The translations under genes and the position numbers were made by a program. The notes under the pieces are model-generated. The model was given only the letters and a program-made list of their open reading frames with translations, did no database searches and had not been told where the DNA came from. 25,454 nt of DNA, from the IMG/VR virus record IMGVR_UViG_3300049595_000249, positions 1-25,454 of that record; one strand, 5' to 3'. Below are positions 12,853 through 25,454 of the stretch, piece by piece (position 1 is the stretch's first letter; each line of letters starts with the position of its first letter). Origin of the DNA: a virus.

Positions 12853-14742
12853 TCAAATCTCACAGTGACCTGCGACACACGCTAATGTCTGTGCGCCTTC
12901 GACATTGTCATCTTCTTCCTTGAGGTTATCCCACACAATATCTGTAGGCATCTTAGATAGAAGCTCTTCGTACTGCTCTTTAGTACACTCTTCGTATGGT
13001 GCTTGTCGATAAGAACCACCATCCCAAGGTAGGAATGAGATACCACTAAGCTCATCGAAGTTCCTCCACACCCAAGCACCAACATCCATCCACTCATCTT
13101 CCTTGACAGAGATAGTCACTGAAGGCTTGTGCTCACACCAGTGGCGCTGGTACATCAGCCACAGATCAAGGTGTTGCATAGCTGTTAGGTCATCACGAGT
13201 ACGAGAAGACTCTGGTGCTTTCACTGGGAAAGAAAACACAGCAGTGCTATCAGGTCTCATGACACAGTCCTCTGTAGGGATGTTAGAGTCTGTGAGGAAC
13301 TTGGTCAGCGGATCTTTCTTGTCACCACGAACACGGCGAATATAATAGTTACTATGTCGAGTATGAATACCAGAGGCAGAATTAACAAGTTGAGAAACAG
13401 TGCCGCTAGGTTTGACACAAGTAATCGCAGCAGACACAGGGATTCCCAAGCGAGTTGCAAACTCATTGTTGGTATTAACTGAGACCTCCCGTAAGTATTC
13501 AAGAGACTGCGTAGTGCTTTCACATACCCTCCCCATCCAAGGATTATCTAAGATACCAGTTAATGATACACCAAGTAAACGCTCATCCTCAGTGTTCTTT
13601 TGCCACACCTTACGCAGGTAAGGGAAGTGCGTCAGAGTACTTTGGAACGTGCCTAAGATTGTAGCAACTCTAACCTTCTTAGCTATGTCAGCTACAGTAT
13701 CTTCAGCACGTACTACTACCTCAGTCAGGTTACAGAACTGATAAGGGCGCAGGATAATCTCTGAGCATGGGTTAGTACCAAAGTCATAGCTAGCATCTCT
13801 GCGTCCGTTCTTCTCAGCCTGAGTTTTGCTTGCCTCTCGTGAGAAGATACCACGCTCACCTGAGTGGCTGTTGTACAGGCTAGTCCACTCTGCAAGGAAC
13901 TGACCAATGTCAGGCTTCGATGTGTAGGCTGCAGAGTTATTAGCCAATGCTCTCTGACTGTTGTGCTCCCACCAGCTACCAGACTTACAGGAACGCATAC
14001 GATCATCCTCAAGGTCCGACAAAGAAATCATTGCGCTTCTTCTAACTCCACCCACAACAACAACTTCCCCGATCTTGCAGAGAAGATCATGACATTCGAT
14101 TGATGTGAGTTTGCGGCCAGCTGCTCCTCTAAATTTGTTGGTAGTAAACTTAAAAAGCTCGTCCAAAGGGCCGGGTCCAGAAGCCCTTCCTCCGAAGGTT
14201 TTAAGCCTAGCTCCTGCAGGTCTAATTTTGGATAGGTCATACCTTGCCACTTCCCCAGAGTATAGAAGAGCGATGAGTTGGCGAAGAGCCTTTGCCCATC
14301 CTTCTTTACTGTCCGCAACCACAATAGTAGTCTGACTATCAAACAACTGGTCTGGGACTTCAGGTAACTGATCAACATACTTATGCTCCACAGAAAAGCC
14401 TACACCTGTACCACAGAGTAGGATGTACATAGCCTCATCGAATGCTTTAGGGTCATCGATAGGTAGATAGCTACAGTTGTAGCCAGCAGTGTTGTCACGA
14501 TCCAGTGCCTTGCCTGCTGTCATGATAGCCCTCATAGATGGCATAACATCTAGGTTCTTGACAGCATTAACAAGCTCTGCTCGTAGCTCAGCATCAGGTG
14601 AGAACTTATACTTCTCATCCAGATGATTAAACATAAAATTAAAGTAACGATCTACTGATTCATCCCAGTGCTCACGCCGATTCTTCTCAGGTAGAAACCT
14701 ACTATAACGACTCTTTGCAATAAACTGTTGATAGTAATCCAT
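12853..14742 (-). CDS. Class II (adenosylcobalamin-dependent) ribonucleoside-triphosphate reductase
   Basis: 629 residues. It reduces ribonucleotides to deoxyribonucleotides for phage DNA synthesis using coenzyme B12, not oxygen. The five functional cysteines of the monomeric enzyme (Lactobacillus leichmannii type) all have counterparts: Cys90 (AGYNCSY), radical Cys326 in GTNPCSEI with Asn324 and Glu328, Cys337 in QFCNL, and the C-terminal pair Cys622 and Cys627 (ACVAGHC). Spacings 326-337 (11) and 622-627 (5) equal those in the model enzyme (408-419, 731-736). It is shorter than the roughly 740-residue bacterial enzyme. It implies a host that makes or takes up B12. Confidence 0.92.
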   Translation of the reverse strand: MDYYQQFIAKSRYSRFLPEKNRREHWDESVDRYFNFMFNHLDEKYKFSPDAELRAELVNAVKNLDVMPSMRAIMTAGKALDRDNTAGYNCSYLPIDDPKAFDEAMYILLCGTGVGFSVEHKYVDQLPEVPDQLFDSQTTIVVADSKEGWAKALRQLIALLYSGEVARYDLSKIRPAGARLKTFGGRASGPGPLDELFKFTTNKFRGAAGRKLTSIECHDLLCKIGEVVVVGGVRRSAMISLSDLEDDRMRSCKSGSWWEHNSQRALANNSAAYTSKPDIGQFLAEWTSLYNSHSGERGIFSREASKTQAEKNGRRDASYDFGTNPCSEIILRPYQFCNLTEVVVRAEDTVADIAKKVRVATILGTFQSTLTHFPYLRKVWQKNTEDERLLGVSLTGILDNPWMGRVCESTTQSLEYLREVSVNTNNEFATRLGIPVSAAITCVKPSGTVSQLVNSASGIHTRHSNYYIRRVRGDKKDPLTKFLTDSNIPTEDCVMRPDSTAVFSFPVKAPESSRTRDDLTAMQHLDLWLMYQRHWCEHKPSVTISVKEDEWMDVGAWVWRNFDELSGISFLPWDGGSYRQAPYEECTKEQYEELLSKMPTDIVWDNLKEEDDNVEGAQTLACVAGHCEI

Positions 14743-17791: not shown

Positions 17792-17805
17792 TAGATAGTT
17801 ATCTA
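17792..17805. promoter_or_regulatory. Palindrome copy 1 (TAGATA-NN-TATCTA), intergenic
   Basis: Perfect 6-base arms with a 2-base centre, in the 26-base gap between the ssDNA-binding protein gene and the next gene. On the minus strand it reads TAGATAACTATCTA and is followed directly by AAAGGA and, 11 bases after the palindrome, by the ATG. Confidence 0.7.
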
Positions 17806-17806
17806 T

Positions 17807-18205
17807 TTATAGTACGTTGTCATCGGCAGTAGCGTCTGCACCTGCATACTCAATCAGCTTGGTGACAGTTAGCTTATTGATGCCAGCACTAACACCGCTC
17901 TTACCATTCTTGTTGTAAGCATAGGGTTTAATCAGTGCAATGCCTCGTGATCCGTTGGCTACCTTGCAAGTGACCCTGTTACCTTCTGCATCAACAGTGG
18001 TGATAGGATAGTTCTTAGACTTAGCAGTAATGAAAAAACCTTTTTCTTCTTTATTGCGAACTGAGATACCAACTTCTTCCAGTGCCTTGATAGCAGGCTT
18101 GGATAGGTTGCACAGGTCTACCTGATACTTACCCGACATCTGATTAGGGGTATCAAGAAATGCCCACATTAAATCAGCTTCAATCTTAAGAGGTTTTAAA
18201 TCCAT
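17807..18205 (-). CDS. Single-stranded DNA-binding protein
   Basis: 132 residues with a strong ribosome binding site (CAGGAGAACATT before ATG). Motifs MSGKYQVDLCNLS (23-35), KGFFITAKSKNYPI (55-68), VANGSRGIALIKPY (82-95) and NKLTVTKLIEY (110-120) match a phage ssDNA-binding family common in aquatic podoviruses, functionally like T7 gp2.5. The acidic C-terminal tail (GADATADDNVL) is the usual site for contacting polymerase and helicase. It has its own strong promoter (18252-18279), as expected for a protein needed in large amounts. Confidence 0.8.
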   Translation of the reverse strand: MDLKPLKIEADLMWAFLDTPNQMSGKYQVDLCNLSKPAIKALEEVGISVRNKEEKGFFITAKSKNYPITTVDAEGNRVTCKVANGSRGIALIKPYAYNKNGKSGVSAGINKLTVTKLIEYAGADATADDNVL

Positions 18206-18251
18206 AATGTTCTCCTGAACAAGTTAAGTTAAAAGTTACAGCTACCATAAT

Positions 18252-18279
18252 ATTATAGCACATCAGTGTAGTTTGTCAA
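18252..18279 (-). promoter_or_regulatory. Strong sigma70 promoter upstream of the ssDNA-binding protein gene
   Basis: On the minus strand: consensus -35 TTGACA (18279-18274), 16 bases, then TGC plus consensus -10 TATAAT (18257-18252), an extended -10. Predicted start near 18245, about 40 bases before the ATG at 18205. The -35 lies in the last codons of the preceding gene (stop 18263-18265). Confidence 0.8.
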
Positions 18280-18466
18280 TATCCTCCTGTTTCACCTTAT
18301 GAAATGTTGCCATCATCAGGGCAGTACTGAAGATGGATTGTAGTTCGTCCATGTCCTGAACTGAAGTCTTCATATGGATAGTCTTGTCCTTACGTACACA
18401 AAGGAGGACAACATCTTCCATCCCTTCCCAGAACTCGTCTGTCTTATCTAGTGGGTGTTTGCCCAT
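18263..18466 (-). CDS. Small acidic protein of unknown function after DNA polymerase
   Basis: 67 residues; starts 19 bases inside the 3' end of the DNA polymerase gene with AAAGGA five bases before ATG 18466. Sequence features: DKTDEFWEGMEDVVLLCVRKDKTIHMKTS (FWEGMEDVVLL core) and a C-terminal helix ending EDIDKLH. No recognised family; no metal or membrane motif. It is the last gene before the strong promoter of the ssDNA-binding protein gene, whose -35 box overlaps its final codons. Confidence 0.65.
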   Translation of the reverse strand: MGKHPLDKTDEFWEGMEDVVLLCVRKDKTIHMKTSVQDMDELQSIFSTALMMATFHKVKQEDIDKLH

Positions 18467-20106
18467 GTTTTTCCTTTCTTGTACTCACCATCCAAAGGGC
18501 ATCGTAACTTCAGTACTTTACCCGCTTCCCTGATACTCTGTACTGCGAGGATGCCTACCATATCTGCCTCATCCTCAAGGCATTCTATCTGCCACTCGTC
18601 ATGCACGTTGGCTACGAAGTGTGCGTCAAGCTGGGTCTTCCTAAGCTTCTCATCCAACAGGACAAGAGCCTGCTTCATTACTATTGCACCAGCACTCTGA
18701 AGCAATGTGTTGAGTGCGCTGTGCTGGGAACGGATCTGTAACCTGCGTCCATCAAGACCTTCAATCGTCCCTCCCGCTGATAGGTTTTCAACCTTGGTCC
18801 TAAGCTTTTGTAAGCTTGGCGTGTTCCGAAGAAAAGCACTCGTGAGGTCTTTACCTTCTTTAACTCCACCACCAACAATCGCCCCAATTTTGGCAGGTCC
18901 TGCCCCATAAAGGAGGGCATAGATAAAAGTCTTGGCCTGCGCCCGTGTAGCAAGCCCTGCAGCCCTTTGGTTTTTCGTGTGGACATCAGTTCCCAACTCT
19001 TGCGATCCTTCTGTAACAGTCTTGACATACTCCTGATCCTTCATGTAATGAGCAAGCATCCTAAGTTCTAAGGCACTAGCGTCTGCACCCACCAATAGAT
19101 AGTTATCTATTACTGTCCAACAATCCCTGCACTCGTGTCCCCAAGGACTACTACTGCTAGGAACCTGAGCCATGTTAGGGCTGTGGTGTGTCATTCGTCC
19201 CGTGACTGCTCCATTGGTGATGACCTTACCGTGAACCCGTCCGTCTTCAGATACAGCAGTAAGCCATGACTTAACCTGAGCCACCCGTTTCTGAATGAGT
19301 AGGTATTCGGCAATGAGCTTCGCTTCTGGTATATCAACTCCATCCAAGACTGACTCATCTACAATCACCGCTCCTTTCTCAGTATGCTTTGTAGGTTTCC
19401 ATCCCTTGCTCATCAGACGCTTAGCTATCTGCTGACGAGAACCCGGATTGAATACCTCAACGTCATCCTTTAACTGCTTGCCTGTCTTCTCGCTAACTCT
19501 TTGGGTAGTAATAGGAGGGAAGATGATTTGTAGTTCGTGTTCTATCTCGCAAAGCCTACGCTCCCAATCACCTACCAAACCCATAGCCTTAGCTACGTCC
19601 AGCTTAAACCCACGTCTCTCCTGACCAGTTACAATCCACTGAACCTTGTGCTCAAGTTCGACTGACTGCTCAGAGAAATCTCGTAGTTCCTTCTTCAAAT
19701 AATTGTACAACTCACCACAGATTGTTACATCTTCCTTACAGTACTCCACCATCTCAGGCGTTAGGCCGCCCTCGAAATCTTCGTACTCCTTCTTGGTTCG
19801 GCTTACGAGCCTTGCTAGATTTGCTAGGCTGTGACCCCCGTCCCTTGTAGGGTTTGACAGTCTTGACATAACCAGTGTATCCCGAACTTGGTTCATCTGA
19901 ATCGTAGTCTTCCAGACCCTGTTCAATACTGGAAAGTCGAAGCTGATCCCGTTGTGTCCTACTATCAACGTAGCTTTCTTGATAAACTCTTGAAAGCTTT
20001 GTGACTCTGTCCATACCATCACTTCCTTAGTGTCAAGGTTATAAGTACAGCAACACCAAATAGTGTCGTGCTTAAGATTGGTTTCAATATCAAGTGCGAT
20101 TCTCAT
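18448..20106 (-). CDS. DNA polymerase, family A, with 3'-5' exonuclease domain
   Basis: 552 residues; replicates the phage genome. Proofreading domain: ALDIET (Asp6, Glu8), GHNGISFDF (Asp57) and YCKEDV (Asp126). Polymerase domain: TGRMTHHSPNMAQVP, motif A GADASALELRMLAHY (Asp342, Glu347), motif B RAQAKTFIYALLYG (Arg388, Lys392, Tyr396, Tyr400) and motif C HDEW (His502, Asp503, Glu504). The residue equivalent to Phe762 of E. coli Pol I is Tyr396, as in T7, a variant linked in the literature to virulent phages. It is more compact than the 704-residue T7 polymerase. No Shine-Dalgarno is seen; a TGATATAAT box lies directly before the ATG. Confidence 0.95.
   Translation of the reverse strand: MRIALDIETNLKHDTIWCCCTYNLDTKEVMVWTESQSFQEFIKKATLIVGHNGISFDFPVLNRVWKTTIQMNQVRDTLVMSRLSNPTRDGGHSLANLARLVSRTKKEYEDFEGGLTPEMVEYCKEDVTICGELYNYLKKELRDFSEQSVELEHKVQWIVTGQERRGFKLDVAKAMGLVGDWERRLCEIEHELQIIFPPITTQRVSEKTGKQLKDDVEVFNPGSRQQIAKRLMSKGWKPTKHTEKGAVIVDESVLDGVDIPEAKLIAEYLLIQKRVAQVKSWLTAVSEDGRVHGKVITNGAVTGRMTHHSPNMAQVPSSSSPWGHECRDCWTVIDNYLLVGADASALELRMLAHYMKDQEYVKTVTEGSQELGTDVHTKNQRAAGLATRAQAKTFIYALLYGAGPAKIGAIVGGGVKEGKDLTSAFLRNTPSLQKLRTKVENLSAGGTIEGLDGRRLQIRSQHSALNTLLQSAGAIVMKQALVLLDEKLRKTQLDAHFVANVHDEWQIECLEDEADMVGILAVQSIREAGKVLKLRCPLDGEYKKGKTWANTH
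19096..19109. promoter_or_regulatory. Palindrome copy 2 (TAGATA-NN-TATCTA), inside the DNA polymerase gene
   Basis: Same 14 bases as copies 1 and 3 within the polymerase gene, encoding residues 333-337 just before motif A. It may be a real site or a coincidence of codons; the exact 14-base identity with copies 1 and 3 argues for a site. Confidence 0.5.
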
Positions 20107-20112
20107 CCTAAT

Positions 20113-20121
20113 ATTATATCA
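20113..20121 (-). promoter_or_regulatory. Extended -10 box (TGATATAAT) directly before the DNA polymerase start
   Basis: The TGA is the stop of the primase-helicase gene; TATAAT follows at 20118-20113. No good -35 is seen 16-18 bases upstream. If used, the transcript would begin near 20106, the A of the polymerase ATG. Confidence 0.4.
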
Positions 20122-21702
20122 CAGTTCTTTGTCTTCGTGTGTCTCACTCATTCGTCCAGTGATACGATCATAGTATAAGGCGCAGGCTGGGCCAGTCAGT
20201 CCACTGAATCTGTTCTTCAGAACCCTGACCCGTGTGGTGTGTCGCTCCTTCAGATCCTCTGACTGACCATTGCGCTCAAGACCTAGCACCATGTCAGACA
20301 ACTGACCTATCGAACCAGACCCACGCAAGGCAGACAGGGACGTAGCCGCGCCCTCCTCGTGACCCTTACCATCAGGACGCTTGAGATGTGACACGCAGAA
20401 CAGTGCTATGCCTGTACTCTGGACAATCATCCTAAGCTTGGTCATGATTTCATCTAAGGCTTTTCGTTCATCACCATTGTCCTGTGCAGATACCACGATA
20501 CTAACGTGATCAAGAAAAATATACTTGCAATCAAGAGCCTTAGCCATGAAACGAACTCTGTTGATAATGTTGTCGATTGCAGTAGAGCCAAAGTGATCAA
20601 AAAGGAAGACACGACCAGTACCCAGTGTAGCGTCAAAAGCACTTCGTAGTTCTTCATTCGTAGCCTCAGTGTCAGGTAGGTGCAATGGTTTGTTAGCCGC
20701 CAAGCTCATGATACTCTTGGCAGTACGCTTCACAGATTCCTCAAGGAACAGCAGTCCAATGTTCTCATCAGTGCTGTTGTTCAGAATGTGATACACAATC
20801 TCTCGCAGGAACTGTGACTTGCCTAGCCCTGAGCCTGCAGTGATCGTGATCAACTCACCCTCTCGTATGCCATAGGTCAGGTCATTAAGACCAGAGAACG
20901 GATACTGAACCTTAGCTAACTCTACTGGTTGATTGACCAAGTCCCACAACCCAGCGCCATCGATGATGCCATCAGGCGTGAACCTCTCAGCCTGCCACCA
21001 TGCATCTACAAACGCTTTGCCTTCGCCTTGTCCGTTGTATTCGCAGGCATCCTTAAGGTCTTTGGTTCCTTTAAATATCTTGGCTTTAGTTCCAAGGACT
21101 TCAGCAACCTGCTCAGCAGCAGTTCGGCCTGCGTCATCACTGTCAAAGCATAGGACAATGTTCTCGAAGGAGTCGAGCCATTCGTAGTTCGCCTTGATAT
21201 CCTGTACTGCATTACCTGCACCATTCCTAACAGAAACCACAGGGTACTTAGAACCCAGCATCTGATACGCCGCCGCAGCGTCAAACTCTCCCTCGCAAAT
21301 AGTGACATACTTACCCCCTTTGTTAAATAACTGCTGCCCAAAGAGAGCACCTTGTTGCCACGAACCCTCGATGCTAAAGCGTTTGTCATCAGTGTTGCGT
21401 TTCTTATACGCAACTAATGTGTCCCCATTGTAGTAGGGAAAGTAATAGAAGTTATCCTTCACCCCTATGCCATAGGTCTGACAGGTCTCACGAGTTAGTC
21501 CTCGATCAACCACAGAGCCATAGGTCAGGTCATGTACGTTAGTCATCTTAGATTGAACCTTGGTTAGGTTTGGTTTCATATCGCCTTTGGTTACTTTCTT
21601 CTCACCACATTTAAAGCACAGGCTACCCCAGTCATAGTAGGTAAGTGCGTCACTACTACCACAGTCAGGGCATGGTTGATGTGCCTTGAGTTGCTCAGCC
21701 AT
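20119..21702 (-). CDS. DNA primase-helicase (T7 gp4-like)
   Basis: 527 residues from ATG 21702, chosen because GGAG lies about 8 bases before it; an upstream TTG is less likely. N-terminal zinc ribbon: CPDC (Cys11, Cys14) and CFKC (Cys29, Cys32). TOPRIM primase core: CEGEFDAAA (Glu138) and CFDSDDAG (Asp187, Asp189). Helicase (DnaB/RecA-like): Walker A AGSGLGKSQ (Lys295), Walker B YIFLDHVS (Asp398), SHLKR (His439) and LRGSGSIGQLSD with a C-terminal Arg-rich VRVLKNRFSG. It unwinds DNA and makes primers for the polymerase encoded next. Confidence 0.94.
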   Translation of the reverse strand: MAEQLKAHQPCPDCGSSDALTYYDWGSLCFKCGEKKVTKGDMKPNLTKVQSKMTNVHDLTYGSVVDRGLTRETCQTYGIGVKDNFYYFPYYNGDTLVAYKKRNTDDKRFSIEGSWQQGALFGQQLFNKGGKYVTICEGEFDAAAAYQMLGSKYPVVSVRNGAGNAVQDIKANYEWLDSFENIVLCFDSDDAGRTAAEQVAEVLGTKAKIFKGTKDLKDACEYNGQGEGKAFVDAWWQAERFTPDGIIDGAGLWDLVNQPVELAKVQYPFSGLNDLTYGIREGELITITAGSGLGKSQFLREIVYHILNNSTDENIGLLFLEESVKRTAKSIMSLAANKPLHLPDTEATNEELRSAFDATLGTGRVFLFDHFGSTAIDNIINRVRFMAKALDCKYIFLDHVSIVVSAQDNGDERKALDEIMTKLRMIVQSTGIALFCVSHLKRPDGKGHEEGAATSLSALRGSGSIGQLSDMVLGLERNGQSEDLKERHTTRVRVLKNRFSGLTGPACALYYDRITGRMSETHEDKEL

Positions 21703-21928
21703 TAGTCTTCTCCTGATATGGACGAACAAACCACAGAGGACAGGCAGTGACAGTACAGTGCTTCACCTCGTCAGTTGCTCCGTGACAGCAGTCATAACAC
21801 TTGGCATTGATGCTCTTTCGTAGGCTCTCAGGATCTTCACGCCAGTGGTCAATGGGTGTCTTGTGCTTGTACCCAGACTTCTTGGCAGCGTTAGCCTTAG
21901 CTAAATTAATCATCAGTTTCTCTTGCAA
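21695..21928 (-). CDS. Cys-rich small protein, probably zinc-binding
   Basis: 77 residues if started at TTG 21928, which has GGAG six bases before it; ATG 21913 and TTG 21940 are alternatives. A basic N-terminal half (KKSGYKHKTPIDHWRED) is followed by Cys44-x2-Cys47-Cys48, His57-Cys58 and Cys63, in the arrangement KCYDCCHG.TDEV..C....CPLW. This pattern, with the final 'CPL(W/Y)..RP', is common in phage small proteins and suggests one zinc site. Placed immediately before primase-helicase with an 8-base overlap. Palindrome copy 3 lies just upstream. Function unknown. Confidence 0.7.
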   Translation of the reverse strand: MQEKLMINLAKANAAKKSGYKHKTPIDHWREDPESLRKSINAKCYDCCHGATDEVKHCTVTACPLWFVRPYQEKTNG

Positions 21929-21941
21929 TTTGAACTCCAAA

Positions 21942-21955
21942 TAGATAGTTATCTA
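21942..21955. promoter_or_regulatory. Palindrome copy 3 (TAGATA-NN-TATCTA), intergenic
   Basis: Identical to copies 1 and 2. On the minus strand it is followed by TTTGGAG and the TTG start at 21928, placing the start codon 13 bases after the palindrome, close to the 10-11 bases in copies 1 and 4. Confidence 0.7.
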
Positions 21956-22011
21956 TGGTTAGGTATCAGGATAATTAGGGACGACACATGAAATGCAAGC
22001 CAAGGTGCAAT

Positions 22012-22203
22012 TCAGAATGCCACATCGCCTAATTGACTGAAGTCACTAACCCTCTTATCCAACTCCTTGCGTTGCTCTAGCAGGACAGCCACATCCTTGA
22101 TGACTTGGTTTGTCCCTAATAATTCTACGTAGTCTGCCACGTCATTAAGACAGAACCAGTAGTGTGCTTCTTCTTGAATCTGTTGTTGCTCTTCATAGTT
22201 CAT
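22012..22203 (-). CDS. Small helical protein of unknown function
   Basis: 63 residues from ATG 22203, with AAGGA about nine bases before it and a strong promoter at 22265-22293. The product is Glu/Gln-rich with YEEQQQIQEEAHYWF at the start and a second helix VAVLLEQRKELDKRV. No conserved family recognised. It is the first gene after the promoter, so it would be the promoter-proximal gene of the downstream replication block. A gap of about 70 bases (21941-22011) with a palindrome and a weak hairpin follows it. Confidence 0.65.
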   Translation of the reverse strand: MNYEEQQQIQEEAHYWFCLNDVADYVELLGTNQVIKDVAVLLEQRKELDKRVSDFSQLGDVAF

Positions 22204-22264
22204 ACTTAGTATCCTTATTAAGATAATAATAATATTAAAGAACTCTTTAGATTACTTAATAGAT

Positions 22265-22293
22265 ATTATAGCATACTTAAATATCCAAGTCAA
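22265..22293 (-). promoter_or_regulatory. Strong sigma70 promoter with extended -10
   Basis: On the minus strand: TTGACT (22293-22288), 17 bases, then TGC plus TATAAT (22270-22265). Predicted start near 22258. The -35 lies in the last codons of the preceding gene (stop 22277-22279), the same layout as at 18252-18279. Confidence 0.75.
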
Positions 22294-22498
22294 GACTATG
22301 ATCCACACACCTATCGCTATAATCATCATCATCTTGTCTACAATCTTCTTCCTCAAGATCACTCCTGTCCAAAGTTAAAACATCATCTTTTATTGTAGCA
22401 TAACAATTGTTACAAAGGTCTAAATACTCTTCAGTCTTTAGGGTCTTTCGAGTTGCCTCAAAGTCTGTCAGTGCTGCGTTGCAGCTAAGACATCTCAT
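22277..22498 (-). CDS. Zinc-ribbon-like small acidic protein
   Basis: 73 residues from ATG 22498, which overlaps the previous stop (ATGA); a GTG four codons upstream is less likely. Two Cys pairs, Cys3-x2-Cys6 and Cys29-x2-Cys32, frame a short linker with LTDFEATRK and YLDLCNNC, a pattern I recognise from many podovirus genomes ('MRCL.C...L.DFEATRK'). The C-terminal half is very acidic (EEEDCRQDDDDYSDR). Probably binds one zinc. Function unknown; an acidic tail might mimic nucleic acid, but that is speculation. Confidence 0.75.
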   Translation of the reverse strand: MRCLSCNAALTDFEATRKTLKTEEYLDLCNNCYATIKDDVLTLDRSDLEEEDCRQDDDDYSDRCVDHSLDLDI

Positions 22499-22665
22499 AC
22501 TTCCACCCACTTTCGATTAGCCCAGTCATAACTAAAGAGCGCACCTTCCTTAGTAATACCATACAAGTTATTGTTTCTGTCAAAAGCAATTGACACAAAC
22601 ATCCGACAATCTGCAATGACAATTTCTTGTGCCACTTCTTCAACTACCTTCTTAGTCCTCGCCAT
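22495..22665 (-). CDS. Small protein of unknown function with beta-propeller-blade-like motif
   Basis: 56 residues from ATG 22665; an upstream TTG is less likely and would increase overlap. A basic start (ARTKKVVEEVAQE) precedes VSIAFDRNNNLYGITKEGALFSYD and ends NRKWVEV. 'NNLYGIT..G.L..YD....W' resembles a single blade of a beta-propeller or a short all-beta fold. Coupled on both sides by overlaps (14 bases upstream, ATGA downstream). No function can be assigned. Confidence 0.65.
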   Translation of the reverse strand: MARTKKVVEEVAQEIVIADCRMFVSIAFDRNNNLYGITKEGALFSYDWANRKWVEV

Positions 22666-22828
22666 ACCATTCCCTTCGTTCTTTAAGAGTGTCAATCAAC
22701 TTTAACTTTTCCTTGTCATCCATGATTGACCAGTTCTCAATCTCCATGCGTGAGCGGAGACATCCAACACATAAGCCAATGTCATATTCTATCTGACATA
22801 CATCGATGCAAGGACTATTTACAGGCAT
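22652..22828 (-). CDS. DUF1289 family Cys-rich protein
   Basis: 58 residues from ATG 22828, with GAGG 7 bases before it. The whole protein matches the DUF1289 pattern: SPCIDVCQI (Cys7, Cys11), GLCVGCLRSR (Cys20, Cys23), IENWSIMDDKEKLKLI. DUF1289 is a small, usually bacterial protein with four cysteines that probably bind zinc or an iron-sulfur cluster; function is not known. A phage copy in an early operon suggests host-derived interference with a host pathway, but this is speculative. It overlaps both neighbours by 14 bases. Confidence 0.85.
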   Translation of the reverse strand: MPVNSPCIDVCQIEYDIGLCVGCLRSRMEIENWSIMDDKEKLKLIDTLKERREWYGED

Positions 22829-22988
22829 CTTCAAACCTCGCAATCTCTTCTACAAGACGCTTGATCCTAGCACGAAGCATGAAGTTCTCACGCTCAAGCT
22901 CTGAGATATCGTTCATGTACTGATCCACTAACTGCACCTCGTAAGGCACACCAGAAACCCTGTGAACATGAGGGTCTTTATCATTCAT
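22815..22988 (-). CDS. Coiled-coil small protein of unknown function
   Basis: 57 residues from ATG 22988 (third of three successive ATGs; GAGGAG gives best spacing, about 7 bases, to it). The N-terminus HVHRVSGVPYEVQLVDQYM is followed by a single long coiled coil, ISELERENFMLRARIKRLVEEI. It probably forms a dimer or trimer. The gene start overlaps the end of the small membrane gene upstream. No recognised family. Confidence 0.65.
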   Translation of the reverse strand: MNDKDPHVHRVSGVPYEVQLVDQYMNDISELERENFMLRARIKRLVEEIARFEDACK

Positions 22989-23064
22989 CATCATTCTCCT
23001 CAGCGATTCCATACAATACAGCGAAGATAATAACACAAGCCATCACAATAAGAAAGTTTATCAT
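22981..23064 (-). CDS. 27-residue membrane microprotein
   Basis: ATG 23064 overlaps the stop of the preceding gene (ATGA). One hydrophobic helix (INFLIVMACVIIFAVLYGI) and an acidic tail (EENDDE). Its tail codons also form the ribosome binding site of the next gene (GAGGAG). A single-span inner membrane peptide, possibly acting on the host membrane. Very short, so confidence depends on its overlaps in an otherwise gap-free operon. Confidence 0.55.
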   Translation of the reverse strand: MINFLIVMACVIIFAVLYGIAEENDDE

Positions 23065-23207
23065 TTCATAGCCGCCATTGTCAAGCCGATATTCCCAATA
23101 GAATAACCTATAAACGCTATGCCTAAGCCAGTGTTGCCTTTGATAAGTAGATCAACACTCACCAGTGCGTAGACCACACCTATGATTGCGATAAGCCATG
23201 CTGACAT
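23061..23207 (-). CDS. Small double-span membrane protein
   Basis: 48 residues; ATG 23207 overlaps the previous stop (TAATG). Two hydrophobic segments, WLIAIIGVVYALVSVDLLI and GLGIAFIGYSIGNIGLTM, separated by KGNT. 'W.IAI.G..YA.......KGN.G...A..GY...NIGL' is a pattern I recall from podovirus early genes, so it is likely real and conserved. It is followed directly by the 27-residue membrane peptide. Inner-membrane location inferred; function unknown. Confidence 0.7.
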   Translation of the reverse strand: MSAWLIAIIGVVYALVSVDLLIKGNTGLGIAFIGYSIGNIGLTMAAMK

Positions 23208-23479
23208 TATGATTTATCCTTCTCATATAACTCCTTAGCCTTGACATACACAGTTGCTGAGTGTAGGCCAATGACATAGTCGAGTTTACCAACAACACCC
23301 CAAGCCTTCTCCTTGATAGCAGTCTCCCGCATATCAATCATCTTGGCAAGGATAAAGATCTCAGCATGGTCTTGATTCTCGACAACCTCTTCAAGCTCTG
23401 AGATCCGTGACTTCATCCAGTCAACCTCATCTTTATAGTTCTCGTAATAAACCCAGTCTTCCTTGTCTATCGTAGACAT
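23207..23479 (-). CDS. Helical early protein; possible longer form starting at 23548
   Basis: 90 residues from ATG 23479, which has a perfect AAGGAG six bases upstream. Contents: a charged helix (EVDWMKSRISELEEVVENQ), ILAKMIDMRETAIKEKAWG and a C-terminal helix VYVKAKELYEKDK. In frame, an upstream ATG at 23548 adds 23 residues beginning MKQRNFVAKYSQRSGAGKHK. That stretch resembles a separate small basic phage protein ('MKQRNFVAK...R.GAG.HK.K'), so this gene may be a fusion with two starts. Function unknown. Confidence 0.6.
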   Translation of the reverse strand: MSTIDKEDWVYYENYKDEVDWMKSRISELEEVVENQDHAEIFILAKMIDMRETAIKEKAWGVVGKLDYVIGLHSATVYVKAKELYEKDKS

Positions 23480-23507
23480 ACGCTTCTCCTTATGTTTACC
23501 TGCACCA

Positions 23508-23762
23508 CTACGCTGCGAATACTTCGCTACAAAGTTGCGCTGCTTCATCACATTCCACCCTTGCCTGTGTCTCAATCCAGACATGAGCGCCACATGACAG
23601 AGGCTTGTCAGGACTGTAAACGATTTCCGAATCACCATGTATCTTCACACGATGAGCATACATATTACTCTTATAAGTCTTAACTGTCAAGACAGGTAAG
23701 TTATCCCCAGTCTTGCGGTTATGCTTGATGTTGTGCTGATTTACATGGATGATTGTTTTCAT
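23508..23762 (-). CDS. Conserved phage protein of unknown function
   Basis: 84 residues from ATG 23762, overlapping the previous stop (ATGA) with AAGGG before it. TIIHVNQHNIKHNRKTG, PVLTVKTYKSNMYAHRV, SEIVYSPDKPLSCGAHVW and IETQA form a conserved beta-rich protein that I recall in many T7-like and aquatic phages ('MK.IIHVNQH.I..N.K.G...PVLTVK.YK.N.YA'). No function established. It overlaps the possible long form of the next gene by 41 bases. Confidence 0.75.
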   Translation of the reverse strand: MKTIIHVNQHNIKHNRKTGDNLPVLTVKTYKSNMYAHRVKIHGDSEIVYSPDKPLSCGAHVWIETQARVECDEAAQLCSEVFAA

Positions 23763-24112
23763 ATTATCCCTTTTATTTGTCTTCCACCGGCATTATAGAA
23801 CCACCTAGGAAATGATATCATACCTCTAAGATCTGTCAAGGAAGTCTTAGGCTCAATACTGTTACCATCCTTGTCAGTACCCAATACCAGTGCCTTGCCA
23901 CACAAAGGATTAGGATAGCCATCAACCATGAAGAACCGTCTATCTTCCTTGTACAATCCCTCGTCATCGATATAGATTGTATCAACAGATCCTTTGAATC
24001 CTACACAATCAAATGTCTCACAGTCAATAAGTTCATAGATGTCTTCGTAGTTTCCTGAGTATTCTACCTCAGTTACTATGGTTTCATATGGGTCGATCAG
24101 GTATGCTTTCAT
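23759..24112 (-). CDS. DUF3846-like protein
   Basis: 117 residues from ATG 24112, with AAGGAG right before. The start KAYLIDPYETIVTEVEY.G.YEDIYELID, the middle DTIYIDDEGLYKEDRRFFMV and GKALVLGTDKDGNS are the layout of DUF3846, a family found in phages and mobile elements with unknown function. Palindrome copy 4 lies immediately upstream of its ribosome binding site (24123-24136), so this gene is a candidate for the control by the palindrome. Confidence 0.75.
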   Translation of the reverse strand: MKAYLIDPYETIVTEVEYSGNYEDIYELIDCETFDCVGFKGSVDTIYIDDEGLYKEDRRFFMVDGYPNPLCGKALVLGTDKDGNSIEPKTSLTDLRGMISFPRWFYNAGGRQIKGII

Positions 24113-24122
24113 GCTATCTCCT

Positions 24123-24136
24123 TAGATAACTATCTA
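24123..24136. promoter_or_regulatory. Palindrome copy 4 (TAGATA-NN-TATCTA), intergenic
   Basis: Centre AC on the plus strand, GT on the minus strand (copies 1-3 have the reverse). On the minus strand it runs straight into AAGGAG and the ATG at 24112, 10 bases after the palindrome. Its upstream end overlaps the stop codon of the preceding gene. Confidence 0.7.
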
Positions 24137-24376
24137 AAATCCAATACGCTTGAGTTGGTCTCTGAGTTTGATCTGTGCAGGCGTGTGCTCGACAGGAAAC
24201 CATTGGTCAGCAATCTGAACCTGCATAATATCATGAGCATAGACAGAGCCAGTCTCTGTGAACTCACCATACACAGTGGCTAGGCGAGTGTTGCCTTTCA
24301 TATTGTCAGCAATCTCTGCCTCCCACCCGTTCAACAACTTAACTCTACTGCCTCGCTTTAGGTCATTAGTCTTCAT
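24134..24376 (-). CDS. Conserved phage protein of unknown function
   Basis: 80 residues from ATG 24376 (a GTG three codons upstream is possible). KTNDLKRGSRVKLLNGWEA, GNTRLATVYG, TGSVYAHDI and VEHTPAQIKLRD make a small beta-barrel-like protein that I recall in several podovirus genomes ('MKTNDLKKG..V.L.NGW...I.DN..GNTR'). KOW/SH3-like folding is possible by pattern, but not shown. It overlaps the previous gene by 11 bases. Confidence 0.75.
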   Translation of the reverse strand: MKTNDLKRGSRVKLLNGWEAEIADNMKGNTRLATVYGEFTETGSVYAHDIMQVQIADQWFPVEHTPAQIKLRDQLKRIGF

Positions 24377-24575
24377 ATATTTCACATACCTTTTTATATG
24401 CGTTTATTAAGTTACCTTCGTTATCATATATCTCATTAAGACGAAGGATCCAGTCTGTAACAGCAGTAATATGGTGCTTGTCTGGATTGTCAATGAGCCA
24501 CAATAACTCATGATAGACCAATGCCTCAAGCATTTCTTTCCTGTCTGTCACGCAAACGGCTGTATCTTTTTGCAT
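24366..24575 (-). CDS. Small helical protein of unknown function
   Basis: 69 residues from ATG 24575, with a GGAG about ten bases upstream. Two helical segments: EMLEALVYHELLWLID and ITAVTDWILRLNEIYD, then NLINAYKKVCEIYED. Overlaps the gene upstream by 28 bases and the next by 11. No family recognised, no membrane segment or metal motif. Confidence 0.6.
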   Translation of the reverse strand: MQKDTAVCVTDRKEMLEALVYHELLWLIDNPDKHHITAVTDWILRLNEIYDNEGNLINAYKKVCEIYED

Positions 24576-24751
24576 TGATAAATTACTCCTTCATAGTTAG
24601 ATGCTATCCAATCATCAGTTGTTACGTCAATATAATCATTAAACTCTGCCTCTTCCATGTCAACTATCTTATAGTCTCCGTAAATTGTAGCATATGGTAA
24701 ACCATAATAATCTTCTTCATAGATAATATTGTCTCCAATCAATACCTTCAT
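24548..24751 (-). CDS. Small acidic protein of unknown function
   Basis: 67 residues from ATG 24751 with AAGGA before it and ATGA overlap with the previous stop. Very acidic and Tyr/Asp/Glu-rich: YEEDYYGLPYATIYGDYK, VDMEEAEFNDYIDVTTDDW. Such acidic early phage proteins are sometimes DNA mimics or inhibitors; nothing here proves it. No recognised family. Confidence 0.65.
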   Translation of the reverse strand: MKVLIGDNIIYEEDYYGLPYATIYGDYKIVDMEEAEFNDYIDVTTDDWIASNYEGVIYQCKKIQPFA

Positions 24752-24921
24752 ACTGCTTCCTTGGCTTGAAACAAGTCATCACACCGAACCTTCATGACAG
24801 CATCCCGTAGTGAGCGATAGGCAACACGAATGTCAATCTCAGAATGCTCCGTCCAACCACCTGACTCGATCTCTGCGATTAAGTCTTGCATATGATACAA
24901 CATATCTTTTGTGTCCATCAT
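24748..24921 (-). CDS. Small helical protein of unknown function
   Basis: 57 codons from ATG 24921 (the adjacent ATG 24918 is equally possible); AAAGG lies six bases before the first ATG, right after the stop of the GP88-like gene. Ends with ATGA overlap with the next gene. Features: MLYHMQDLIAEIESGGW, SEIDIRVAYRSLRDAVM. A single-domain helical peptide with two Cys-free halves and one Cys (RCDD). No family recognised. Confidence 0.65.
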   Translation of the reverse strand: MMDTKDMLYHMQDLIAEIESGGWTEHSEIDIRVAYRSLRDAVMKVRCDDLFQAKEAV

Positions 24922-24923
24922 TA

Positions 24924-25454
24924 TTAACCTTTCATCTGAATGAGTTTGATAACCTTAGCCTTTGACTTACCGTGATATGGATACGCAATCACAGGAGTCA
25001 TCTTATCCCAACATTGCCTACAAGTCAAGCACTTTCCATCCTGTTTATATGCAGGACACACATACGCCTCAGTCTTGAAATCCCTGTCGGGTATGATGGT
25101 GCTAGAATTTAGATAAGTATCTAAAACAGACCCATCCACCTCGTCACTAGATGCCCTGACTGTAACATTAGGCAAGTCCTGCATAGACCTAAGTATAGCC
25201 TGAAACTTAGGAAACTTATACATCCTAGTAGGCAGCCAGTGCCTACAATTAGGGGTGCGATTCATGACAGTGTAAATCTTTTCTGCCAATTGGATATGAA
25301 ACATATCGCCAGAGTCGAACCATCTAAAGAATTTCTGCCTAGATAGGGACGAAACCATGCGATCTACCCAGTCTGAATTGCGCCAGTCTTGCAAATTAAA
25401 CTCTCGCACTGCCTTAACATTGGGCATATGATACATACCCTGCCTAGCATAGCA
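24924..25454 (-). CDS. GP88 (gene product 88) family protein, N-terminus beyond the window edge
   Basis: The frame is open to the right edge, so the 176 residues here are the C-terminal part; ATG 25436 is internal, because it follows CYARQG, a motif usually found inside GP88 proteins. Recognisable parts are MYHMPNVKAVREFN, FRWFDSGDMF, TRMYKFPKF, VRASSDEVDG and a Cys cluster AYVCPAYKQDGKCLTCRQCW (three or four Cys, likely binding metal). GP88 is a widespread phage family of unproven function. Palindrome copy 5 lies inside this gene. Confidence 0.75.
   Translation of the reverse strand, partial: CYARQGMYHMPNVKAVREFNLQDWRNSDWVDRMVSSLSRQKFFRWFDSGDMFHIQLAEKIYTVMNRTPNCRHWLPTRMYKFPKFQAILRSMQDLPNVTVRASSDEVDGSVLDTYLNSSTIIPDRDFKTEAYVCPAYKQDGKCLTCRQCWDKMTPVIAYPYHGKSKAKVIKLIQMKG
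25110..25123. promoter_or_regulatory. Palindrome copy 5 (TAGATAAGTATCTA), inside the GP88-like gene
   Basis: Same arms with centre AG and flanking TT/AA giving 18 bases of symmetry-like sequence (TTTAGATAAGTATCTAAA). It encodes LDTYL in the gene. Weaker evidence than the intergenic copies. Confidence 0.45.

Follow-up and report, generated by a model that had tools for sequence, protein, structure and literature searches.

The window analysed here, i.e. the whole stretch of 25,454 bases, is a virus record of a podovirus-like phage with its early genes on the minus and its late genes on the plus strand. Profile matches identify a family A DNA polymerase, a DnaB/Toprim primase-helicase, a 5'-3' exonuclease, a B12-dependent-type ribonucleotide reductase (RNR), and a phage lysozyme. 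Inspection of the early open reading frames (ORFs), without a profile search, pointed to no RNA polymerase. The minus strand carries the gene of a Gp2.5-like single-stranded DNA-binding protein (SSB; 17807..18205; the near-identical L086:18580-18978 matches phrog_112, 1.8e-11), the DNA polymerase gene polA (18448..20106; Pfam DNA_pol_A, 2.9e-49), a GP88-like gene that runs off the window (24924..25454; GP88, 8.5e-30 for L086:11135-11776), and, at the distal end of the early arm, the RNR gene (12853-14742), of which Pfam models match parts only. Three putative sigma70-like promoters on the same strand, all with an extended -10 and all consensus matches only, read TTGACA-16-TATAAT (12/12; 18252..18279, upstream of the SSB gene), TTGACT-17-TATAAT (22265..22293), and TTGACA-16-TATCAT (23812..23839, early arm).

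The 14-base palindrome TAGATA-NN-TATCTA is present in five exact copies, with the plus-strand centres GT, GT, GT, AC, and AG in coordinate order. The copy at 17792..17805 (TAGATAGTTATCTA) fills part of a 26-bp gap between the stop of the SSB gene (17807) and the next start (ATG 17780, minus), downstream of the predicted promoter at 18252..18279 and in the same transcript; it is kept in L006, L007, L008, L094, L096, and L108 and is degenerate as TAGATAATTAGCTA in L010/L011. The second copy (19096..19109) lies within polA, just before polymerase motif A, where it encodes IDNYL in place of a conserved ExK/Y-type turn of site-less relatives. The third (21942..21955) occupies a gap adjoining the TTG start of an 81-aa ORF (21695-21940, minus), about 310 bp downstream of the predicted promoter at 22265..22293. 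The fourth (24123..24136) overlaps the stop codon of the ORF 24134-24385 (minus) and adjoins the Shine-Dalgarno sequence of the ORF 23759-24112 (minus), and the fifth (25110..25123) is found inside the GP88-like gene, encoding LDTYL at a position where site-less relatives differ.

A sequence-only reading of the window had listed these coordinates and centres, and a recount reproduced them exactly. It had put the chance expectation well below 0.01; the computed value is 0.003-0.006 exact copies (Markov orders 1-4) vs. five observed. With up to two mismatches allowed, the window holds eight matches, a number never reached in 100 dinucleotide shuffles, and chance origin is ruled out by the Markov expectation together with the shuffles. 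TAGATA-NN-TATCTA is the sole palindrome with 6-base arms repeated at least three times in the window, and no other of this kind was found in the window or in longer motif-negative relatives. The same reading had confined the full copies to the early half and had seen half sites in the late one: all five palindromes are in the early half, the late half is devoid of a full copy, and unpaired half sites are indeed present there, though in the early half too. The site was found neither in the late arm nor in shuffled sequence.

Distribution among related phages and the partner gene g1

The relatives considered here (80 from IMG/VR) were gathered by polymerase. The nearest named phages, Pelagibacter phages HTVC103P/104P, are distant (polymerase ~50%), and the capsid protein of cyanophages matches that of the window phage at 30-37% within the portion that aligns. 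The palindrome recurs in L006-L011 (86-99% alike), L034 (75%), and L044, L045, L046, and L048 (64-68%) and is absent from most other polymerase relatives; as contig completeness was not established for the relatives, claims of absence are provisional. The near-whole G002 (= L086; 39.4 kb) harbors eight strict copies and G003 seven, all in the early arm. Near-whole contigs carrying g1, the gene described below, show 7-9 relaxed matches each, the strict ones again in the early arm only, and no strict site was found in the late arm or at the exonuclease-to-RNR end of the early arm. Some copies have moved: L105 has lost those in GP88 and before g16 and has acquired others before g3 and g15. The contig of L115 bears two further copies at its far end, which would fit an early arm that is circularly permuted. 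In L025, L029, L041, L104, and L105, a gene of 213-220 aa (FDVGAHHPYNISNTALLYERGWRGVCVEANPN), methyltransferase-like by eye, is inserted between or near primase and polA; it is absent from the window and from G002.

A broad motif scan of viral contigs revealed two or more strict copies, among 79 new loci checked, only in known members of the group, and in what could be seen among the matches listed, repeated copies are restricted to this phage group. A single copy by a start codon in L100, a different phage, was set aside as probable chance. Searching the literature for the 14-mers gave a single match, an unrelated yam SNP paper, and, within the library searched, no paper naming the sequence as an operator.

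The occurrence of the sites coincides with that of g1 (163-170 aa; 167 codons in G002, L086:10269-10772), the gene that opens the early arm and is located beyond the window's end. Contigs spanning the terminase small subunit to the primase contain 5-8 strict sites when g1 is present (8/8) and none when it is absent (22/22), a count that includes near-duplicates such as L107/L108. Relaxed matches number 98 in 205 kb of g1-positive loci vs. one in 797 kb with neither g1 nor sites; since the latter class is defined partly by its lack of strict sites, the count over spanning contigs is the fair test. No convincing ORF other than g1 occurs in all positives and in no negatives; the remaining ORFs listed are antisense or overlapping frames or are missing from some positives. 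In a tree of the terminase (TerL), g1 switches three times and the sites follow each time; the contrast amounts to three independent pairs and is, because of this small number, below significance (sign test, p 0.25).

Phages with 95-97% identical TerL, plausibly infecting similar hosts, have both g1 and the sites or neither, which argues against binding of the site by a host transcription factor or nucleoid protein with g1 as a linked accessory, e.g. an antagonist of that factor. Such an arrangement is unlikely also in view of the sites at the start of g1 and within it, as is seen with autoregulated regulators. It would accommodate the missing recognisable DNA-binding domain of g1, and the distance of the nearest cultured relatives (polymerase ~50%) leaves room for it.

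An alignment search of IMG/VR yielded 18 g1 loci with identities of 52-100%, of which the most distant, L114 and L115 (52-53%), show mostly variant sites, e.g. TAGCTAACTATCTA and TAGATAGTTACCTA. g1 has no Pfam match above cut-off, no PHROG match, no PDB sequence match, and no match in INPHARED, and neither profile nor fold searches detected a known DNA-binding domain. An AlphaFold2 model based on 16 relatives is all-helical (pLDDT 82; residues 21-100 above 90), for which Foldseek against PDB and BFVD returned nothing convincing. The helix of residues 56-73 (EKEAKNYKSRVKAILKNW) is conserved and basic and would be the candidate for DNA contact.

Several short palindromes near replication genes are reminiscent of the dispersed centromere sites known from some plasmid-prophages. 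A function as parS-like partition sites or as recombination sites is nevertheless highly improbable: the g1-positive contigs searched gave no match to tyrosine integrase (PF00589), resolvase (PF00239), or ParA (PF13614), and g1, unlike the protein of a ParB/parS system, belongs to no Pfam family above cut-off and matches no ParB family. Furthermore, neither a g1 relative nor a prophage carrying one was found in 84,980 bacterial and archaeal genomes (GTDB), at the sensitivity of that search.

Selection on the palindrome as DNA

Judged from the aligned sequences, the element is selected as DNA, with its sequence kept and its position shifting. The sequence-only reading had asked for conservation of the site where flanking codons are not conserved, and at orthologous loci the site is retained while the flanks, even codons, differ. 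In polA, most site-less relatives show before motif A V-x-[EDG]-G-[KY]-x-LVG, whereas the window group has VIDNYLLVG because the palindrome sits there. In L044, the site comes one codon later (VDLDNYLVG), in L046 with one extra codon (VDLDNYLLVG), and in L045 and L048 elsewhere, near the 3' end (LDSYLKK), giving at least four separate placements in polA. In the GP88 gene, the LDTYL of the site becomes VDTYL in L107/L108. For site 2, located within g1, the mean pairwise codon identity is 0.89 vs. 0.47 at other invariant residues. Copies inside genes are read as nTA-GAT-Ann-TAT-CTA and avoid the TAG-first frame, which would create a stop codon.

Of 62 non-redundant relaxed sites, a few of which, outside early-arm positions, are probably chance matches, 56 have GT, AC, or AT as their two-base centre. 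At arm position 4/11, a compensating change is missing for 16 of 18 departures, and on account of these one-arm changes the palindrome is not regarded as an RNA hairpin. The claim that it would make a poor hairpin holds as well: the perfect palindrome folds as RNA at -3.6 to -4.7 kcal/mol, and its AT-rich 6-bp arms with neither a GC-rich stem nor a T run, along with this weak fold, rule out an intrinsic terminator. It is very unlikely that the element acts in RNA at all, as a small hairpin near the Shine-Dalgarno sequence controlling translation or mRNA processing. Several copies do abut a Shine-Dalgarno sequence and the perfect form can fold, but the loop letters vary with the stem letters fixed, the tested variants lose the hairpin (-0.4 or 0 kcal/mol), and copies are buried deep inside polA, GP88, and g1. 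As a structured RNA element it was rejected, given that the stem is not kept by compensatory changes.

Layout around g1 and a model for early transcription

In G002, the upstream part missing from the window contains the genes g1 and g2, two promoters (P1 and P2), three sites, of which site 2 is inside g1, and, between g1 and P2, a terminator-like hairpin. In the direction of transcription, the usual g1 locus shows a promoter, a site, g1 with an internal site, a terminator-like hairpin, a promoter, and a downstream site, with promoters and terminators being consensus matches only. In G002, G003, L096, and L104, site 1 (degenerate in L104) lies no more than about 20 bases past a sigma70-like P1 (TAGACA-16/17-TAAGAT or TATTCT). 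After g1 and site 2 comes a GC-rich hairpin with a T run, clearest in G002, G003, and L104, and then the second predicted promoter P2 (TTGACA-16/17, extended -10) with site 3 before g2. Most of the other g1 loci share P2 and the sites inside or following g1, but L097 is devoid of a copy after P2. In L111 and L097, the stretch directly before g1 shows no recognisable P1, and in L113 and L115 the predicted P1 is preceded by site 1.

Two further kinds of element were observed in these regions. Another short palindrome, TTGCANTGCAA or, in L107, GCTGCAGTGCA, precedes g1 in L105, L107, L109, and L113; it stands close to the usual P1 or replaces it and is possibly the site of another regulator. Elements resembling hammerhead ribozymes, in which CUGAUGAG or CUGAAGAG is followed by CGAAA and stems II and III are closed, occur in early-arm gaps of L097 (5719), L111 (4934, 5249), L113 (6959), L114 (1018, 1384), L038 (4669), L066 (1420, 1670), and L091 (18599, minus strand). 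A start codon closely follows many of these elements, and several adjoin g1. Some match Rfam HH9 and RAGATH-1, in every case with a score under the gathering threshold; no such element was seen in the window.

We judge it fairly probable that a dimer-binding, phage-encoded regulator, most likely the g1 product, has TAGATA-RY-TATCTA (RY = GT, AC, or AT) as its operator and brakes early transcription. A symmetric DNA site for a dimeric regulator had been the first idea of the sequence-only reading, and it is supported by the strict co-occurrence of a candidate gene, whose product would be the binding partner. Host RNA polymerase would start at the sigma70-type promoters P1 and P2, and the g1 protein, made first, would accumulate. 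Its binding to site 1 beside P1 and to site 2 within its own gene would bring about autoregulation; it would further occupy site 3 just downstream of P2 and additional sites, spaced at 0.2-3 kb and located both between and within genes, as far as polA and the SSB gene. Bound in this way, it may block initiation and elongation at dispersed operators in a stoperator-like manner, so that early transcription would be turned down and the late arm left free. Early-transcription timing is favored over lysogenic immunity, since no integrase, resolvase, or ParA was found in the g1-positive contigs searched, and no g1-carrying prophage in the bacterial and archaeal genomes.

In most g1 loci, the sites near promoters are found past the -10, and the bulk of the remaining sites well inside transcribed regions, which fits blocking better than activation. 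It is improbable that the g1 protein acts at the sites as an activator, as an elongation or antitermination factor, or as a replication or DNA-organising protein. The location of site 1 in L113 and L115, which would also suit an activator, and the recurrence of sites inside or beside polA and the SSB gene count in favor of such functions; the missing strict sites in the late arm and at the exonuclease-to-RNR end speak against them. A g1 repressor, for its part, has to be weighed against the unrecognised fold and domain, the restriction of the tree contrast to three pairs, the position of site 1 in L113 and L115, and the P1 not recognised in L111 and L097.

Stoperator-like control is best known from temperate actinobacteriophages. 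In Cluster A mycobacteriophages (L5, Bxb1), one short site is repeated genome-wide at promoters and in short intergenic gaps; the stoperators of L5, 13 bp long, asymmetric, oriented with transcription, and numbering 20-30 per genome, are tied to a phage-encoded repressor that binds as a monomer with a helix-turn-helix (HTH), and the phages are temperate (PMC6550527, PMC9283540). The present sites resemble these in lying beside P1 and P2 and in their preference for gaps, which hold five of the eight sites of G002 and make up 5.7% of the region (p 3e-5). They differ in being 14-bp palindromes with GT, AC, or AT centres and no single orientation, and in numbering 5-9 per genome in the early arm only, not 20-30 throughout. 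The Cluster A repressor has an N-terminal HTH and, once bound, stops transcription elongation; the model of g1 is all-helical, with no Pfam, PHROG, PDB, or fold match. Unlike the temperate Cluster A phages with their integrase or parABS, no PF00589, PF00239, or PF13614 match was obtained here, from contigs that may be incomplete. Being palindromic, few, and without a single orientation, and with no integrase or parABS found, the sites are not filed under Cluster A stoperators.

Autoregulated phage repressors such as CI, Cro, and Arc have a symmetric operator beside their own and a neighbouring early promoter. The symmetric site beside the promoter of the candidate regulator and a neighbouring early promoter is alike, but here the sites run kilobases downstream and into coding sequence, and g1 matches no known repressor family or fold. 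Gp5.7 of T7 is a small phage DNA-binding protein that represses initiation by host RNA polymerase (PMC5569994). As a lytic-phage protein acting on transcription by the host polymerase it offers a parallel, provided that g1 binds DNA; unlike the 7-kDa, winged-HTH-like Gp5.7 acting at initiation, g1 is of about 19 kDa, predicted all-helical, and linked to a repeated sequence-specific site.

The dispersed sites and g1 suggest an undescribed on/off control system in these uncultured aquatic phages, which show no sign of dormancy genes. More tentatively, g1 could be the founder of a new family of proteins that bind DNA sequence-specifically and whose helical fold resembles that of no known regulator, serving as an early brake at palindromic roadblocks in phages without lysogeny genes, for which conserved polA residues have been given up in favor of the site. 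The polA case is one of a regulatory site clearly overriding protein sequence in a replicative polymerase. The 14-bp site and the ~167-aa protein form a small, directly testable pair, and their presence or absence among near-identical phages represents a natural experiment. If true, aquatic podovirus-like phages with no recognisable lysogeny genes would have a palindromic form of stoperator-like control, linked to a single gene whose fold matches none known, and with it a separate way of timing early genes with the host polymerase alone.
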